Origin: Lutibacter flavus
GTDB lineage: Bacteria; Bacteroidota; Bacteroidia; Flavobacteriales; Flavobacteriaceae
Length of the DNA stretch: 64,000 bases
Assembly: GCF_900188355.1 (NCBI RefSeq)
Contig: NZ_FZNX01000001.1
Span: 1,204,003 to 1,268,002 of the forward strand
Reading direction: 5' to 3'
The position numbers and the translations under genes were made by a program. This document shows, in pieces, positions 39,093 through 46,482 of this stretch. The notes below the pieces were generated by a model, which ran no database searches, was not told the DNA's origin, and saw only the letters and a program-made list of their open reading frames with translations. Each line of letters opens with the position of its first letter. The stretch's first letter is position 1.

Positions 39093-41483
39093 ATGAGGAT
39101 TTTAAAATCTAATTATAAAAAGAATTCGGATTTACCATTAAAACTTAAAATAAGTTTTAAACCTATATTTGAATACCTTGAAAAAATTGCTGTCGATAAT
39201 AATCATTTTTTAAAACCTTCGGCAATTCAATTATTAGAAGAATATCAAAACTATCCAGAACTTAAGGAAGGTTTTGACGATTTTAATCAGTTAGAAAAGT
39301 ATAATAAAGAAGTAGATAAAATTTTAGATATTTTATTTCCAGATTTATTACAAGAGAACGAAATTAAAGCAGCAAGTATTCCTTTTGAATTTACCTCTTT
39401 TAAACTTTCAAAACGGTTTTCTCAAATTATTGAAGATGCTGGTGAAGATTATGAATTTAAACTTCGAAATTACGAAGAGTCTAAATTTTATATTTTAGCT
39501 TGTACCTTTATTCTTGCATATTGTCATGACACGCACATAGATTTTAGAAGACCCTTTTATTTTGACATTCCAGATAAAAATACAGGAATCACTAAACATT
39601 ACAGGACTTTATTTAATGGTGATTTTTTTAAAGTATCACCACTTGAAAACGCACCAAAAATAACAACTGAAGATATTAATTTACTATTAGATAACTTTGA
39701 TAATATTGATATTTGGATGGAAAAATTTCCTCCAAATAGTTATCAATTTGAAGGTTTTGGAATTATGAATTTATTTGATGTTACCTCAGATCAGGCAATA
39801 TCAAACTTAAGAGAAAACCTTTTAAAAAAGGATGATGATTCTTTTCAAGAATTGGAAAAAAGCATTTCTCATTTATATGGATCTTCAACAGTTCAATTCG
39901 GATTTTCAACCTATAATTCAAATATTAACGGGTTACAATTTAAAAATCATAAAATAAAGAAAAGTTTTATTCAACAAGATAAATTCGGTCAAGAATGTCA
40001 AGGCTTTTTCTGTGATGAAATACTAAATAAAGTACTTAAAAACAATGAATTAATCGCCATTTCTGATATGGAAAAATATGGAAATAATTCTAACTACAAT
40101 GGTTTTTACAAAGTGCTTAAGGATCAAAATATTCAAAGTATTATATTAGTTCCAATACAATTAAAAGAAGATTTACTCGGAGTTTTAGAATTAGTGTCAA
40201 CCAAGAAATACGAATTAAATTCTATAAATGCTTACAAATTAAAAGATGTTATTCCTGTATTCAAAATATCGATTGAAAGATATTTGGAAGAATATGAAAA
40301 CAAGCTAGAATCAGTAATTCAAGAAAACTATACTGCATTACATTCTTCAGTAAAATGGAAATTTTATGAAGAAGCCGAAGAATATCTTTTTAATTTAGAT
40401 TTAGGAAACAAACGAAATTACAATTTAAAAGAAATAGTTTTTGATAACGTTGTTCCGTTATATGGTCAAATTGATATCAAAGGATCATCAGTTGCCAGAA
40501 ATATAGCAATACAAGAAGATCTGGTAAATCAATTAAATTTAGCTTCAATAATAATAGAAAAAGCTCATGCTTTATATAATTTACCTATATACAATGATTT
40601 ATTATTTAGAATTGATGAATGCTTAACTAACATAAAAGATGGTTTAAATTCTGGAGATGAATTAACTCTGACTGATTTTTTAAACAAAGATATTTACCCC
40701 GTTTTTAATCATTTAAAAGCTTTAGATAACAATTTAAAAAGTGATATTGATATTTATATGCAACAAATTGATGACACACTTCATGTTGTTTATGATAAGC
40801 GAAAAAAATATGAAGAAAGTGTTAATATCTTAAATGAGGAATTAGCCAAATTTATTGATAAAAAACAAGTTGAAGCTCAAAAAATGTTTCCTCATTATTT
40901 TGAACGCTATAAAACTGATGGTATTGATTATAACATGTACGTAGGTCAATCATTAGTTAAAAATTGCACTTACAACAAAATTTATTTGTACAATTTTAGA
41001 TTATGGCAATTACAATTAATGTGCGAATTAGAAAATATTGCAACTAATTTAAAAGATACTTTAGAGCATCCTTTAGATGTAGCCTCTTTAATTTTAGTAC
41101 ATAGCAATCCTTTAGCTATTAAATTTAGAATGGATGAAAAACGCTTTGATGTTGATGGAGCTTATAATATTAGATATGAAATAATTAAAAAACGAATTGA
41201 CAAAGCTCATATATTAAACACCAATGAGCGATTAACACAACCTGGAAAAATCGCAATTGTATATAGCCAAAATAAAGATGCTGCCGAATATTTAAAATAC
41301 ATTAAGTATTTACAATCTAAAAACTATTTATTAAAACCTGTTGAAAAATTGATTATTGAAGATCTTCAGGGCATTTCAGGATTAAAAGCATTAAGAGTCG
41401 CTGTCAATTACAATAATACTCCAGAAAACAAGATTACACTTAATGATTTAATGAAAGTTATAACTAACGATAACTTAAATTAA
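39093..41483 (+). CDS. large GAF-domain protein
   Basis: 796 residues, cytoplasmic, no signal peptide or membrane helix. A GAF-like sensor region spans about 240-405, ending with NIQSIILVPIQLKEDLLGVLEL, a typical GAF strand pattern. The flanking parts are mainly helical. The N-terminal part (about 15-190) and C-terminal part (about 440-790) have no domain I recognise, and no kinase, HTH, GGDEF or phosphatase output is visible. I recall conserved proteins of this length in Flavobacteriaceae annotated simply as GAF domain-containing. The gene overlaps the convergent HD-PycTM gene by 9 nt. Confidence 0.8.
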   Translation: MRILKSNYKKNSDLPLKLKISFKPIFEYLEKIAVDNNHFLKPSAIQLLEEYQNYPELKEGFDDFNQLEKYNKEVDKILDILFPDLLQENEIKAASIPFEFTSFKLSKRFSQIIEDAGEDYEFKLRNYEESKFYILACTFILAYCHDTHIDFRRPFYFDIPDKNTGITKHYRTLFNGDFFKVSPLENAPKITTEDINLLLDNFDNIDIWMEKFPPNSYQFEGFGIMNLFDVTSDQAISNLRENLLKKDDDSFQELEKSISHLYGSSTVQFGFSTYNSNINGLQFKNHKIKKSFIQQDKFGQECQGFFCDEILNKVLKNNELIAISDMEKYGNNSNYNGFYKVLKDQNIQSIILVPIQLKEDLLGVLELVSTKKYELNSINAYKLKDVIPVFKISIERYLEEYENKLESVIQENYTALHSSVKWKFYEEAEEYLFNLDLGNKRNYNLKEIVFDNVVPLYGQIDIKGSSVARNIAIQEDLVNQLNLASIIIEKAHALYNLPIYNDLLFRIDECLTNIKDGLNSGDELTLTDFLNKDIYPVFNHLKALDNNLKSDIDIYMQQIDDTLHVVYDKRKKYEESVNILNEELAKFIDKKQVEAQKMFPHYFERYKTDGIDYNMYVGQSLVKNCTYNKIYLYNFRLWQLQLMCELENIATNLKDTLEHPLDVASLILVHSNPLAIKFRMDEKRFDVDGAYNIRYEIIKKRIDKAHILNTNERLTQPGKIAIVYSQNKDAAEYLKYIKYLQSKNYLLKPVEKLIIEDLQGISGLKALRVAVNYNNTPENKITLNDLMKVITNDNLN

Positions 41484-42710
41484 ATCAGGTGTAACTCCAG
41501 AATTTTTCATTATTTCAAAAGCAATTACAAAGGCAATTACTGAAATAATTATCCCAACCATAAAAATATTATAGGCTATACGCAATAGCCTATATTTTTT
41601 TTCTAGTACTATTCCAAGAAAATATAAATCTTTCATTAAAGTTTTGTAAAGGTATTCCCTATCTTTCATTAACTCAGTCATTCCCTCTTGAAAATCTTCC
41701 AAAGGCATTTGATGAAAATTACCAAAAAACAATAAATTTACTTTTTTATTTTTAACATCTTCTTTTGTAAACTTACCTGAAGTAACCTTTGGCCGTGTAG
41801 ACAAGATAGAATAAATCATTGTTATTACTGTAATAAATAAAAAAAACAACGTAGGGTAAATTAAATAGTAATTGTCAGGTTTATCCAATTTTGGAAACAA
41901 ACTAGAAAGCGCAATTGACAAAATAATTGCACTAACGGACAACAATATATTTGCCTTAGTATCAGCTATATCACTTAATTTAATATGATTTTTCAATGTT
42001 ACCCGATACATTGTTTCAATACCTCGTTCTGGTCTGTCACTCTTATCCTTCTTTCTTTTTAATTCTTCTTTTTTTAATTTATTTTTAACCCTTAACTCTT
42101 CATTTTTAGCAATTGTTTTGCGTAAATCCTTTTTAACTTTTAACCAATTTGCTGTTTTTTGCTTATTTAAATTAGCAAAGGCATAATTTGTAAAATATGT
42201 ATGCTCACTTAAAAAAATTTCATTTTCTTCTAAATATTCAATATCTGTTAAAGTCTTATCACATAATTGTTCCCATTCAGAACGAAGTAAATTCGATTTT
42301 TCATTAAAATCTTCAGCTCCTAAATGGTATAAATCAGCATCACAGATAATTTCCTCTAATTTATTAGTAGGTTTCTGTGGTATTTTGGTAGCATCAATTA
42401 ATAAATTGACTTTTGATATTTTATCTAAAGAGAAACCCTTTTCACTTAAATATTTTTCTGAAATTTCTTTACTCTTTGTTTCATGATTTTCAAATCCGTA
42501 TATAAAACCTGTATCATGAAACCAAGCTGCAAGCAATACTATTTCTAACTCCTCTTCGGTAATATTTTCAGCTAAACCAATTTCATAAGTATTTTTAACA
42601 ACTTGAAATGTATGTTCAAAATTATGGTAAACCACTTTCGGAGAAAGTTCGTTTTTAAACAAATTAAACACAAAGGCTTCTATCTCCTTAAAAAAATCGT
42701 TTTCTAACAT
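41475..42710 (-). CDS. HD-domain protein fused to Pycsar-effector-type TM domain
   Basis: 411 residues. The N-terminal half (about 1-190) is an HD phosphohydrolase: YHNFEHTFQV, LLAAWFHDTGF (HD pair) and EEIICDADLYHLG. A very basic linker (about 195-225) follows. The C-terminal part (about 230-411) matches the DUF5706/Pycsar system effector domain: KLSDIADTKANILLSVSAII (TM), LIYPTLFFLFITVITMI (TM), the NLLFFGNF segment and a last TM near 380-400. Pycsar effectors respond to cyclic CMP or UMP; the HD domain could hydrolyse a nucleotide. No cyclase gene is adjacent. The ATG at 42710 is set because a TATTTTTG box (42739-42732) overlaps the only upstream TTG. Confidence 0.85.
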   Translation of the reverse strand: MLENDFFKEIEAFVFNLFKNELSPKVVYHNFEHTFQVVKNTYEIGLAENITEEELEIVLLAAWFHDTGFIYGFENHETKSKEISEKYLSEKGFSLDKISKVNLLIDATKIPQKPTNKLEEIICDADLYHLGAEDFNEKSNLLRSEWEQLCDKTLTDIEYLEENEIFLSEHTYFTNYAFANLNKQKTANWLKVKKDLRKTIAKNEELRVKNKLKKEELKRKKDKSDRPERGIETMYRVTLKNHIKLSDIADTKANILLSVSAIILSIALSSLFPKLDKPDNYYLIYPTLFFLFITVITMIYSILSTRPKVTSGKFTKEDVKNKKVNLLFFGNFHQMPLEDFQEGMTELMKDREYLYKTLMKDLYFLGIVLEKKYRLLRIAYNIFMVGIIISVIAFVIAFEIMKNSGVTPDLI

Positions 42711-42731
42711 AGTAAAAAATATAGTTGAATT

Positions 42732-42739
42732 CAAAAATA
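42732..42739 (-). promoter_or_regulatory. -7 box of the HD-PycTM gene
   Basis: TATTTTTG on the minus strand overlaps an in-frame TTG at 42734 and so rules it out as the start. It gives a leader of about 16 nt to the ATG at 42710. Confidence 0.5.
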
Positions 42740-42780: not shown

Positions 42781-45700
42781 ATGAATCGAGTTCTTATTTG
42801 TAAACTTACTTTTTTATTTGTTTTCCTATTTTTAGGTAGTTGTGCAACTTATAATGCCCAATATGAAAATTCGAATTTGAAATGGGATACAAATTCAGCT
42901 GATAAGAATTTAGAAATTGACCATACTTTTTATTTAATTGGTGATGCCGGAAATGCTTTAAAAGGAGAGATTTTAACACATTTTAATTTATTAAAAGAAG
43001 AACTTTCCAAAGCAAATGAAAACACTACTGTACTTTTTTTAGGTGATAATTTATATGAAAAAGGATTACCTAAAAAAGATGATCTAAACAGAGAATTGGC
43101 TGAACACAGATTAGATGCTCAAATTGAATTAGTGAAAAATTTTAAAGGTCAGCCAATTTTTATTCCAGGAAATCACGATTATTACAGCAACGGAATAAGT
43201 GGTTTAAAAAGAGAAGAAAAATATATTACAAATAAGTTAGATGATAAAAAATCCTTTTTACCAAAAGATGGCTGCCCAATTGAAAAAGTTGATATCTCAG
43301 ATGAAATTGTATTGATAATTGTTGATTCTCAATGGTATTTAGAAAATTGGGATAAAAACCCAACAATGAATGATAATTGTGACATTAAAACCCGAGAACA
43401 TTTTTTTGATGAATTTGAAAGTTTAATTAAAAAAAATGAAAGTAAAACAACTATTGTAGCAATTCACCATCCACTTTTTAGCAATGGTTCTCATGGCGGT
43501 CAATTCTCATTTAAATCACAATTTTACCCTGTTAATAATAAAATTCCTTTGCCTGTTCTTGGTACAATAGCTAATGTATTTAGAAAAACCAGTGGTGTTT
43601 CTATACAAGATATGAACAACTCACTTTATTTAGAGTTAAAAAACAGAATTGTTACACTTTCTCAAAAAGCTGAAAAAGTAATTTTTGTGTCTGGTCACGA
43701 GCATAATTTACAATATATATTTAGAGATAATATTCCTCAAATTGTTAGTGGATCGGGTTCCAAAACATCAGCAGCAAGAGTTATTAATGGAAGTAAATTT
43801 TCGATTGGAAAATTGGGATATGCAAAAGTTGACGTTTATAAAAATGGTGCTTCTTGGGTATACTTTTATACTGAAAAAAATGAAACTAAAAAGTTAGAAT
43901 ATAAAACTGAAATTTACCCTTCAAACATAACTGAAAAGCAATACAATTTTGAAAACCATTTTCCAAAAACTGTTTCGGCATCTATTTATAGTAAAGATGA
44001 AATTTCAAAAGGAAAAGTTTTTTTGGGCTTATGGGGTAAACATTACAGAAAATATTATGGCACAAAAGTAACAGCTCCAACTGTTTTATTAGATACTCTT
44101 TTTGGAGGTTTAACTCCCCTAAAAACGGGAGGAGGAAATCAATCCAGATCTTTACGCTTATCTGATAAAACCGGTAAAGAATACGTAATGAGAGCATTAC
44201 GGAAAAGCGCAACCCAATATATTCAAGCTGTCGCCTTTAAAAATCAATATATTGAAGGTCAATATGATAATACTTATACAGAAAGTTTGTTATTGGATAT
44301 TTATACCACATCGCATCCTTATGCTCCTTTTACAATTGGTCAATTAGCTGAAGCTATAGATGTTTATCACACAAATCCAACCTTATATTATGTTCCAAAA
44401 CAAAATGCATTAAAACACTTTAATGAAGAATTTGGTAATGAATTATATATGATTGAAGAACGTGCTTCAGATGGACATGGTAACGTTAAAAGTTTTGGTT
44501 TTTCAGATGAATTAATAAGTACAAGTGATTTATTAAAAAAACTTAGAAAGTCTGACGATAATTCAGTTGATGAAGATACATACATTAGAGCTCGATTATT
44601 TGACATGTTAATTGGAGATTGGGACAGACACGAAGATCAATGGAGATGGGCAGAGTTTAAACAAAACAAAAGAACAATTTATAAACCAGTTCCAAGAGAT
44701 AGAGATCAGGCATTTTCAAAAAACGATGGATTTATTCTTGGTTTTTTAACACGAGCTATTCCTGCTTTAAAATTAATGCAAGTGTATGATGAAGAAATTC
44801 GAAATGTAAAATGGTTTAACTTAGAACCTTACCCACTTGATATGGCACTTATAAATAACGCCACATATAAAAATTGGGAACAACAAGTTGCCTATATTCA
44901 GCAAAATATTACAGATGAAGTAATTGACGCTGCTTTTGAGAACTTTCCTGATGAAGTAAAAGATAAAACTATTGACGAAATAAGAACCAAGCTAAAAGGA
45001 CGGTTAAAAAACTTGCCTAAAATTGCCAAAACATATTATAAACATTTATCTAAATATGCCATAGTAAAAGGAAACGATAAAGACAATTGGTTTGATATTG
45101 AACGTTTAGAAAATGGACAAACATTGGTAAAAGTATTTAATATTAAAAATGATAAAAAAGGAAACTTACTATTTGAAAAATCATTTAATAAGAAAACTAC
45201 ATCAGAAATTTGGGTATATGGATTAGATGATAAAGATAAATTTTATGTAACAGGATTATATAATAAGGTTATTCCATTAAGAATTATAGGGGGGCAAAAT
45301 AATGATGAATATTATATCGAAAACGGAAAAAGAGTAACTGTTTATGACTTTAAATCAAAGAAAAATACAATAGTTAAAAACAAAGCCCGATTAAAACTAG
45401 TAAACGATTACGAAACAAATGTTTACAATTATAAAAAATTAAAATACAGCCAAAATCAATTAATTCCTGCAATAGGTTCTAACCCAGATGATGGAGTGAA
45501 AATTGGAATTAATGATGTTTTTACGGTTTACGGCTTTGAAAGAAATCCGTTTACTCAACAGCACACATTAAATGCAGCTTATTATTTTGCTAACAAAGGA
45601 TTTGATATTTTATACAGTGCAGAGTTTGCAAATATTTTTAAAAAATGGAATTTCTTAGTTGAAACTAAATTTACAAGCCCAAACTATAGCATTAATCATT

Positions 45701-46482
45701 TTGGTTATGGTAATGAAACTATTAATTTTGAGAAAAGTTTTGACGAAAACTACCATAGAGTTAGGTTAAGTACTTATGCAATAGCACCTTCATTAAAATG
45801 GAATGGTCGTTTAGGGGCTATGTTTAAAATTGGAACAACCATTGAAAGTATAGAGGTTGAAGCATCAGCCGATAGATTTATAAATTCACTTCCATATACA
45901 CTAGATAAGCGCAAAAATTTTATTGGTGTAAAGACTTCATATTTATATGAAAATTATGATAATAATGTTTTTCCAACACTTGGCATGAGCTTTTCTATTG
46001 ATACTGGCTGGAAAACAAACTTTAAAAATAAAAACGAAAATCACATTTATGTAACACCTTCCTTAGGAATAAATTACAAGCTAATTGCGAGCGGAAAAAT
46101 TATTTTTGCAACAATATTAAAGGGAAATGTAATAATTGGTAATAACTTTGAGTTTTATAATGCAGCAAGTATTGGTGGACTTGACGGTTTACGTGGTTAT
46201 AGAAACCAGCGTTTTGTTGGAGATAAATCGTTTTATCAAAATACGGATATTCGATTTAATTTAAGAAATGTTAAAACTGAATTGATACCATTAAAATTTG
46301 GTTTATTTACTGGATTTGATTATGGCAGAGTTTGGCTTAAAAATGAAAATTCCAGTGACTGGAAAACCTCATATGGAGGAGGCTTTTGGCTTGTTGGAGC
46401 AGAATTAATTAATTTAAATTTATCTATTTTTAAGTCAAAAGAAGGTACCTACTTCAAATTTGGTTTAGGTTTTGGATTTTAA
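42781..46482 (+). CDS. phosphoesterase / kinase-like / Omp85-type barrel fusion lipoprotein
   Basis: 1233 residues with lipobox GSC. Region 1 (about 45-360) is a calcineurin-like phosphoesterase: GDAGN (D55), GDN (D89, N90), GNHD (N131-D133), HHPLFSNGSHGG and GHEH (H306, H308). Region 2 (about 440-720) is unassigned but has kinase-like marks: Gly-rich KTGGGNQ (448-454), YVMRALRK (K475), E501 on a following helix, GDWDRHEDQ (D615, Q620) and RDRDQAF (640-645). Region 3 (about 880-1233) is a beta-barrel with the Omp85 signature GLDGLRGYR and a C-terminal Phe. It is likely on the outer membrane. First gene of a three-gene operon. Confidence 0.85.
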   Translation: MNRVLICKLTFLFVFLFLGSCATYNAQYENSNLKWDTNSADKNLEIDHTFYLIGDAGNALKGEILTHFNLLKEELSKANENTTVLFLGDNLYEKGLPKKDDLNRELAEHRLDAQIELVKNFKGQPIFIPGNHDYYSNGISGLKREEKYITNKLDDKKSFLPKDGCPIEKVDISDEIVLIIVDSQWYLENWDKNPTMNDNCDIKTREHFFDEFESLIKKNESKTTIVAIHHPLFSNGSHGGQFSFKSQFYPVNNKIPLPVLGTIANVFRKTSGVSIQDMNNSLYLELKNRIVTLSQKAEKVIFVSGHEHNLQYIFRDNIPQIVSGSGSKTSAARVINGSKFSIGKLGYAKVDVYKNGASWVYFYTEKNETKKLEYKTEIYPSNITEKQYNFENHFPKTVSASIYSKDEISKGKVFLGLWGKHYRKYYGTKVTAPTVLLDTLFGGLTPLKTGGGNQSRSLRLSDKTGKEYVMRALRKSATQYIQAVAFKNQYIEGQYDNTYTESLLLDIYTTSHPYAPFTIGQLAEAIDVYHTNPTLYYVPKQNALKHFNEEFGNELYMIEERASDGHGNVKSFGFSDELISTSDLLKKLRKSDDNSVDEDTYIRARLFDMLIGDWDRHEDQWRWAEFKQNKRTIYKPVPRDRDQAFSKNDGFILGFLTRAIPALKLMQVYDEEIRNVKWFNLEPYPLDMALINNATYKNWEQQVAYIQQNITDEVIDAAFENFPDEVKDKTIDEIRTKLKGRLKNLPKIAKTYYKHLSKYAIVKGNDKDNWFDIERLENGQTLVKVFNIKNDKKGNLLFEKSFNKKTTSEIWVYGLDDKDKFYVTGLYNKVIPLRIIGGQNNDEYYIENGKRVTVYDFKSKKNTIVKNKARLKLVNDYETNVYNYKKLKYSQNQLIPAIGSNPDDGVKIGINDVFTVYGFERNPFTQQHTLNAAYYFANKGFDILYSAEFANIFKKWNFLVETKFTSPNYSINHFGYGNETINFEKSFDENYHRVRLSTYAIAPSLKWNGRLGAMFKIGTTIESIEVEASADRFINSLPYTLDKRKNFIGVKTSYLYENYDNNVFPTLGMSFSIDTGWKTNFKNKNENHIYVTPSLGINYKLIASGKIIFATILKGNVIIGNNFEFYNAASIGGLDGLRGYRNQRFVGDKSFYQNTDIRFNLRNVKTELIPLKFGLFTGFDYGRVWLKNENSSDWKTSYGGGFWLVGAELINLNLSIFKSKEGTYFKFGLGFGF

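Follow-up and report, generated by a model that had tools for sequence, protein, structure and literature searches.

What lies between the phosphoesterase and the barrel of a large flavobacterial outer-membrane protein? In the 64,000-nucleotide stretch of the Lutibacter flavus genome analysed here (hereafter the window, whose coordinates are used throughout), a single open frame of 1233 aa at 42781-46482 (+) appears to encode a three-domain lipoprotein of the outer membrane, with a metallophosphoesterase in its N-terminal part and an Omp85-type barrel at its C-terminus. The ∼330 residues between the two belong to no family in Pfam or NCBIfam. A previous inspection of the DNA alone, the sequence-only reading, had placed a kinase-like module there, and frame, motifs and conservation confirm this arrangement. 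We favour, at a probability of roughly 55%, an extracytoplasmic kinase-phosphatase that is anchored by its outer-membrane barrel and acts on an envelope substrate. The support comes from prediction and comparison: the modelled fold, the retention of a catalytic residue set, export signals and a recurrent gene linkage.

The kinase-like domain (residues 415-770 as modelled, with a query core at 431-760; 44023..45090, +) was aligned from 150 loci, one in the window's own genome and sets of 80, 29 and 40, which gave 155 rows with the second or third copies present in four loci. Because this set leans on Flavobacteriaceae, the 45 most diverged rows, given second in the counts below, are the fairer measure. 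The glycine-rich loop proposed at 448-454 was located as TGGGNQ at residues 449-454 (44125..44142, +); G450 and G451 are each kept in 154/155 and 44/45 rows, Q454 in 151/155, and the nearby G443 in all 155. The candidate ATP-binding lysine K475 (44203..44205, +), the last residue of YVMRALRK at 468-475, is kept in 154/155 and 44/45. The catalytic-loop motif GDWDRHEDQ spans 612-620 (44614..44640, +) and not 615-620, although D615 had been placed correctly; D615 and H617 are each kept in 151/155 and 41/45 rows, and R616 in 154/155 and 44/45, as is Q620, the glutamine that had been noticed in place of the usual Asn after DRH. Likewise, RDRDQAF was rightly seen but spans 639-645 (44695..44715, +) rather than 640-645. 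Its D642, the proposed metal-binding Asp, is conserved (154/155, 44/45), so that all three residues singled out beforehand for conservation, K475, D615 and D642, held up; however, D640 is the more likely DFG-type Asp, since it is kept in 155/155 rows (45/45) and falls on the CotH Asp in alignment. In the CtkA profile alignment, the CtkA Asp lies one column ahead of D640. E501, put forward as the helix-C Glu, had to be rejected, being kept in 108/155 rows and only 7/45 of the most diverged; the acidic positions that never vary in the domain's first half are instead D506 and E559. The kinase-superfamily set of Gly-rich loop, Lys, catalytic Asp and metal Asp is conserved over the 155 rows, and mean column identity in a diverse 49-row alignment is 44%. 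This conservation across relatives, together with the predicted fold, excludes a chance motif.

An AlphaFold2 model of residues 415-770, built from 81 sequences, has a two-lobed, protein-kinase-like fold (pTM 0.78, mean pLDDT 77.8), and the kinase-like region shows the same order of elements in a full-length model of residues 36-1233 (pTM 0.81, pLDDT 83.3; window-protein residue = model number + 35). Up to an E of 10, a Foldseek comparison of the domain model with PDB structures finds 510 matches, of which 8 have E≤0.001. The best was the HipA-type kinase CtkA (3akk; E 3e-5, probability 1.00), and RIO2, YihE and ADCK3 were also among the eight; PI4K-II (E 0.0015) and the Golgi casein kinase chains 4kqb and 4kqa (E 0.0075-0.018) followed. 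The best 50 of the 510 matches are named kinases, or chains and proteins that we take to have the kinase fold. The kinase fold anticipated by the sequence-only reading is thus what structure prediction returns, and we hold it very probable that the middle domain adopts it. As modelled, the domain is a new family of kinase-fold domain.

Links at the level of sequence profiles were also sought. A profile of the 49 diverse domains, compared with PDB chains, found CtkA first (E 0.023), with DRH on DRH. In HMM-HMM comparison the highest-scoring partner of those tested was Bacteroidota CotH, at 30.0, and here the catalytic loops and the DFG Asp positions line up; controls scored 16.6 and 21.7 (reversed decoys), 17.8 and 21.4 (the protein's own unrelated domains) and 11.9-19.5 (other unrelated pairs), and HipA scored 24.1 against CotH. 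CotH kinases work in an extracytoplasmic setting, and the Fam20 kinases, to which the Golgi casein kinase chains point, also lie outside the cytosol.

Several observations weigh against the interpretation of the domain as a kinase. The hhalign probability of the CotH match is 5.9% (E 0.0064), and the HipA comparison (20.1, hhalign probability 0.5%) falls inside the decoy range. The window protein matches no kinase family in Pfam up to E 10; among the 49 diverse members, two match HipA_C (best E 0.18) and one CotH (E 0.011), by counts from 25 of the 31 matched families, and these are no commoner than matches to unrelated families such as EnY2 (3/49). The match to CtkA has moderate TM-scores, 0.41 (query) and 0.50 (target), and an rmsd of 9, residues 235-245 and 247-267 of the domain model have pLDDT <50, and the fold models cover the window protein only. 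Finally, ATP is scarce in the periplasm. Of the three families suggested for comparison at the outset, CotH scores above the controls, HipA does not, and for Fam20C the Pfam profile does not hit the window protein at any E up to 10; a plain phmmer search of PDB sequences with the whole protein as query likewise gave 0 matches up to E 10. Neither profile score amounts to family membership, and membership in HipA, CotH or Fam20 by sequence is unsupported. The window domain further differs from CtkA and HipA in being exported, in its fusion to a phosphoesterase and a barrel, and in having Gln for Asn; it differs from Fam20 in being bacterial and barrel-fused.

The scarcity of periplasmic ATP and the replacement of the catalytic Asn by Gln would suit a different role, that of a pseudokinase-type sensor: on binding a nucleotide or phospholigand, the domain would gate the barrel or the phosphoesterase and would transfer no phosphoryl group. 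One lineage does carry clearly degenerate copies. Four of the 155 rows deviate among six checked sites; all four lack D615 and are degenerate at no fewer than two sites. D615S and H617R are common to three of them (L116 8439+, L117 7433-, L118 7498-), while the fourth, the long-branch row L135, has lost K475, D615, H617, Q620 and D642 together. Nevertheless, each of the three D615S copies, which come from three genomes of one family, adjoins an intact copy in divergent orientation, and binding alone would not preserve D615, D640 and D642 in 151-155 of 155 rows. We consider a sensor role unlikely and think catalysis by the domain as a kinase somewhat the better bet. To judge from their sequences, the divergent pairs in L116, L117 and L118 look like a pseudokinase-kinase pair; paired intact and degenerate copies in family f9 recall the Fam20A/Fam20C pseudokinase-kinase complex as described in the accessible part of a review (PMC7948968).

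The flanking modules bear on where such an enzyme would act. The frame begins with a signal sequence bearing the lipobox LGSC (Cys21; 42781..42843, +). The metallophosphoesterase, previously placed at about residues 45-360, occupies approximately residues 46-380 (42916..43920, +): Pfam Metallophos (PF00149) matches residues 50-245 (E 2.1e-7), and strands in the full-length model reach ∼379. It contains the motifs GDAGN, LGDN, GNHDYY, HH and GHEHN, from which we take it to be purple-acid-phosphatase-like. A beta-rich linker, set by the secondary structure of the full-length model at residues ∼759-873 (45055..45399, +), leads to the predicted barrel (residues ∼891-1233; 45451..46479, +), which has 16 strands by manual count of the model's elements, starting at about residue 891; no POTRA domains were seen with it. 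Its GLDGLRGYR, already picked out in the sequence-only reading, lies at 1133-1141, and we take the GLRGYR loop to be a mark of Omp85. The assignment is supported by Pfam ShlB (E 4.3e-5), by NCBIfam Omp85_fam (E 3.7e-20, though at 72.8 bits, below the cut-off of 200) and by Foldseek, where the 50 matches listed for the full-length model are either barrels of the BamA, TamA and Sam50 types (best E 1.5e-10) or GAP50 (8.1e-10), the latter of which we read as corresponding to the phosphoesterase part. The remaining, sub-threshold Pfam matches, PAN2_N and Aca2_YdiL, are weak.

A lipobox-like pattern occurs in 100/120 rows of the long class and in 9/11 rows of the length class 'K540', which includes two contig-truncated long forms, one of them with the pattern. 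It is found in 0/19 domain-barrel rows, of which L071 and L123 are fragments near contig ends (L123 starts close to one and may be incomplete) and the other 17 seem to start with a signal-peptide-like sequence, and in 0/5 of the 423-aa forms, which start with a hydrophobic anchor. The lipobox, the signal sequences and the barrel all fit the position outside the cytoplasm that had been proposed. Given the even-stranded barrel, the N-terminal globular part and the N-terminal lipid, both modules would most simply lie on the periplasmic face. Alternatively, the N-terminal modules might be exported by the barrel and use extracellular ATP on the cell surface, an arrangement raised for the 'Metallo' subfamily of Omp85 proteins by analogy with patatin-Omp85 proteins in the available text of Heinz and Lithgow (2014; PMC4104836). 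The lipid and the even strand number favour the periplasmic side instead, and stand-alone copies of the domain appear to start with an inner-membrane-type anchor, so that we consider surface export very unlikely.

The favoured kinase-phosphatase would be an exported enzyme, anchored in the outer membrane, in which an Omp85 barrel carries two phosphate-handling modules of opposite action. In the kinase-like domain, the Gly-rich loop and K475 would bind the nucleotide, D615 would serve as base and D640 would hold the metal, Q620 replacing the usual Asn. The domain might phosphorylate an envelope molecule, whether a protein, a glycan or a lipid head group, and the phosphoesterase might take off the same mark or hydrolyse a by-product.

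The gene partner of the domain is a divergent neighbour with an HD domain and a PycTM membrane domain (41475..42734, -; Pfam PycTM 2.1e-35, HD 1.7e-7), homologues of which are present in 52 of the 80 close loci. Among the 110 genomes in which the domain gene and a PycTM partner both appear in the compared lists, the nearest pair of the domain gene with an HD-PycTM or PycTM-only gene is ≤6 kb apart in 87 and ≤15 kb apart in 99; simple arithmetic for 6 kb either side in a 4-Mb genome gives an expectation of ∼0.3%. The ≤6 kb linkage holds in 33/36 genomes of the window's own family and 54/74 elsewhere, and at least once in 18 of the 21 Bacteroidota families compared. In many distant genomes, the frames that match the partner are ∼190-280 aa long and correspond to its PycTM half alone. 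The HD-PycTM gene is a conserved gene partner of the kinase-like gene. No pyrimidine cyclase, the enzyme expected beside a PycTM effector in a Pycsar system, was found among the window neighbours given a Pfam scan (46500, 47694), and one cyclase-domain gene lies near the domain in L121, within a loose cluster covering 6/35 loci. Downstream esterase and C1-peptidase genes were rejected as partners, being present in only 10/80 and 8/80 loci.

A second linkage bears on the phosphate donor. In 22 of 49 genomes, from 7 families, ppk1 lies ≤15 kb from the domain gene, and in 10 it lies ≤6 kb away. This invites the idea of polyphosphate as donor and, more broadly, of a kinase fold put to a different chemistry, such as AMPylation or glutamylation, or drawing on a different donor, such as polyphosphate or pyrophosphate. 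SelO and SidJ are kinase-fold enzymes with other chemistry and provide the precedent, and a gene cluster with one SixA-type histidine phosphatase member by Pfam, found in 9/35 loci, also points this way. However, 11 of the 22 ppk1-linked genomes belong to one family (f24), 27 of the 49 genomes are without ppk1 linkage, some of it hidden by contig ends, and a PP_kinase_C search of the window's own genome finds nothing at E≤0.001. PPK1-made polyphosphate therefore cannot be required in L. flavus, which argues against polyphosphate as a general rule, and we rate other chemistry or another donor as quite improbable. If the favoured kinase-phosphatase is nonetheless set in its gene context, an outer-membrane phosphorylation switch can be envisaged, in which one barrel-anchored kinase and phosphatase marks and unmarks an envelope component, is tied across the envelope to the inner-membrane HD-PycTM protein (and often to ppk1), and draws on an extracytoplasmic donor that may not be ATP. 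We offer this fuller scheme tentatively and regard it as doubtful.

At E≤0.001, the domain was found in 143 of 394 sampled Bacteroidota genomes, and its relatives are spread over many families of the phylum; the nearest found are in Lutibacter genomes (L002-L009, domain identity 73-81%). A plasmid collection gave 5 matches, all from Bacteroidota by their genus names. Four architectures occur: the long phosphoesterase-domain-barrel fusion, domain-barrel, forms of 518-570 aa, and forms of 423-425 aa that carry a hydrophobic anchor at the N-terminus. With classes set by length rules, a 65-row tree contains 33, 18, 9 and 5 of these, respectively; the labels need 8 changes on the tree against a shuffled mean of 28.1, and a branch with full support separates the 423-aa form from all other rows. 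The three modules are also found as consecutive genes. In L119 (5838-9793), a domain gene (518 aa), a phosphoesterase (403 aa; PF00149 1.6e-6) and a barrel (394 aa; Omp85 2e-11) follow one another, and L120 (8051-12097) has the same kinase-like/phosphoesterase/barrel order by homology and gene order. The stand-alone 423-425 aa forms L111-L115 combine the N-terminal anchor with a C-terminal CFxC motif, and one such form, in genome G118, sits 6 kb from ppk1.

Little is known about phosphorylation beyond the cytoplasm of bacteria, because ATP is presumed scarce there. A kinase-fold family with an intact catalytic set, joined to a phosphatase and a barrel, makes such phosphorylation testable in tractable flavobacteria. 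The fusion of phosphoesterase and Omp85 barrel is itself already known: the 'Metallo' subfamily was described with PF00149, a domain there termed a metalloprotease (Heinz and Lithgow, 2014; PMC4104836, available text), and the window protein likewise joins a PF00149 domain to an Omp85 barrel, its Omp85_fam match being under the NCBIfam cut-off. It differs in the ∼330-aa kinase-fold domain between them, and whereas the available text gives conservation of the subfamily at genus level only, the kinase-like domain, with or without PF00149, occurs in 75 of the 172 Bacteroidota genera sampled. The word 'kinase' is absent from the main text of that paper as available, a word search of the accessible text of a Bacteroidota BAM paper (PMC12611786) gave neither 'kinase' nor 'phosphoesterase', and the accessible part of PMC3482391, which has the words Omp85 and kinase domain, describes nothing of this kind. 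The literature search, which reached few subscription journals and no preprints, turned up no account of the kinase-like middle domain. The 'Metallo' subfamily thereby gains a central domain for which no report was found, as well as a link to a membrane protein of the HD-PycTM kind. The recently described Lani_1194 kinase family is also bacterial and occurs in Flavobacteriales; according to the accessible part of its description (PMC9758233), 94% of members have a methyltransferase domain, for which the window protein has no Pfam match, and identity with that family was set aside on architecture alone. A defence role was also set aside, PADLOC returning nothing for the 1233-aa protein.

Two other gene groups accompany the domain. 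A cluster of SdiA-regulated beta-propellers (three members scanned) occurs in 16/35 distant loci (L138:4885-5796, L127:6625-7467 and 14 others), where it is often an operon neighbour; in 11 of the 12 loci listed, the propeller gene and the domain gene are adjacent and co-oriented, with the propeller gene upstream in 10, and an 11-row alignment has several invariant acidic residues. None of the window's frames is matched by a member of the propeller or the ppk1 clusters. Within the window, the frame at 39093-41483 (+) encodes a 796-aa protein with no PADLOC or NCBIfam match; its relatives are found in 35/80 close loci and in L137, L144, L149 and L150, the L137 relative having no Pfam match at E≤0.01.

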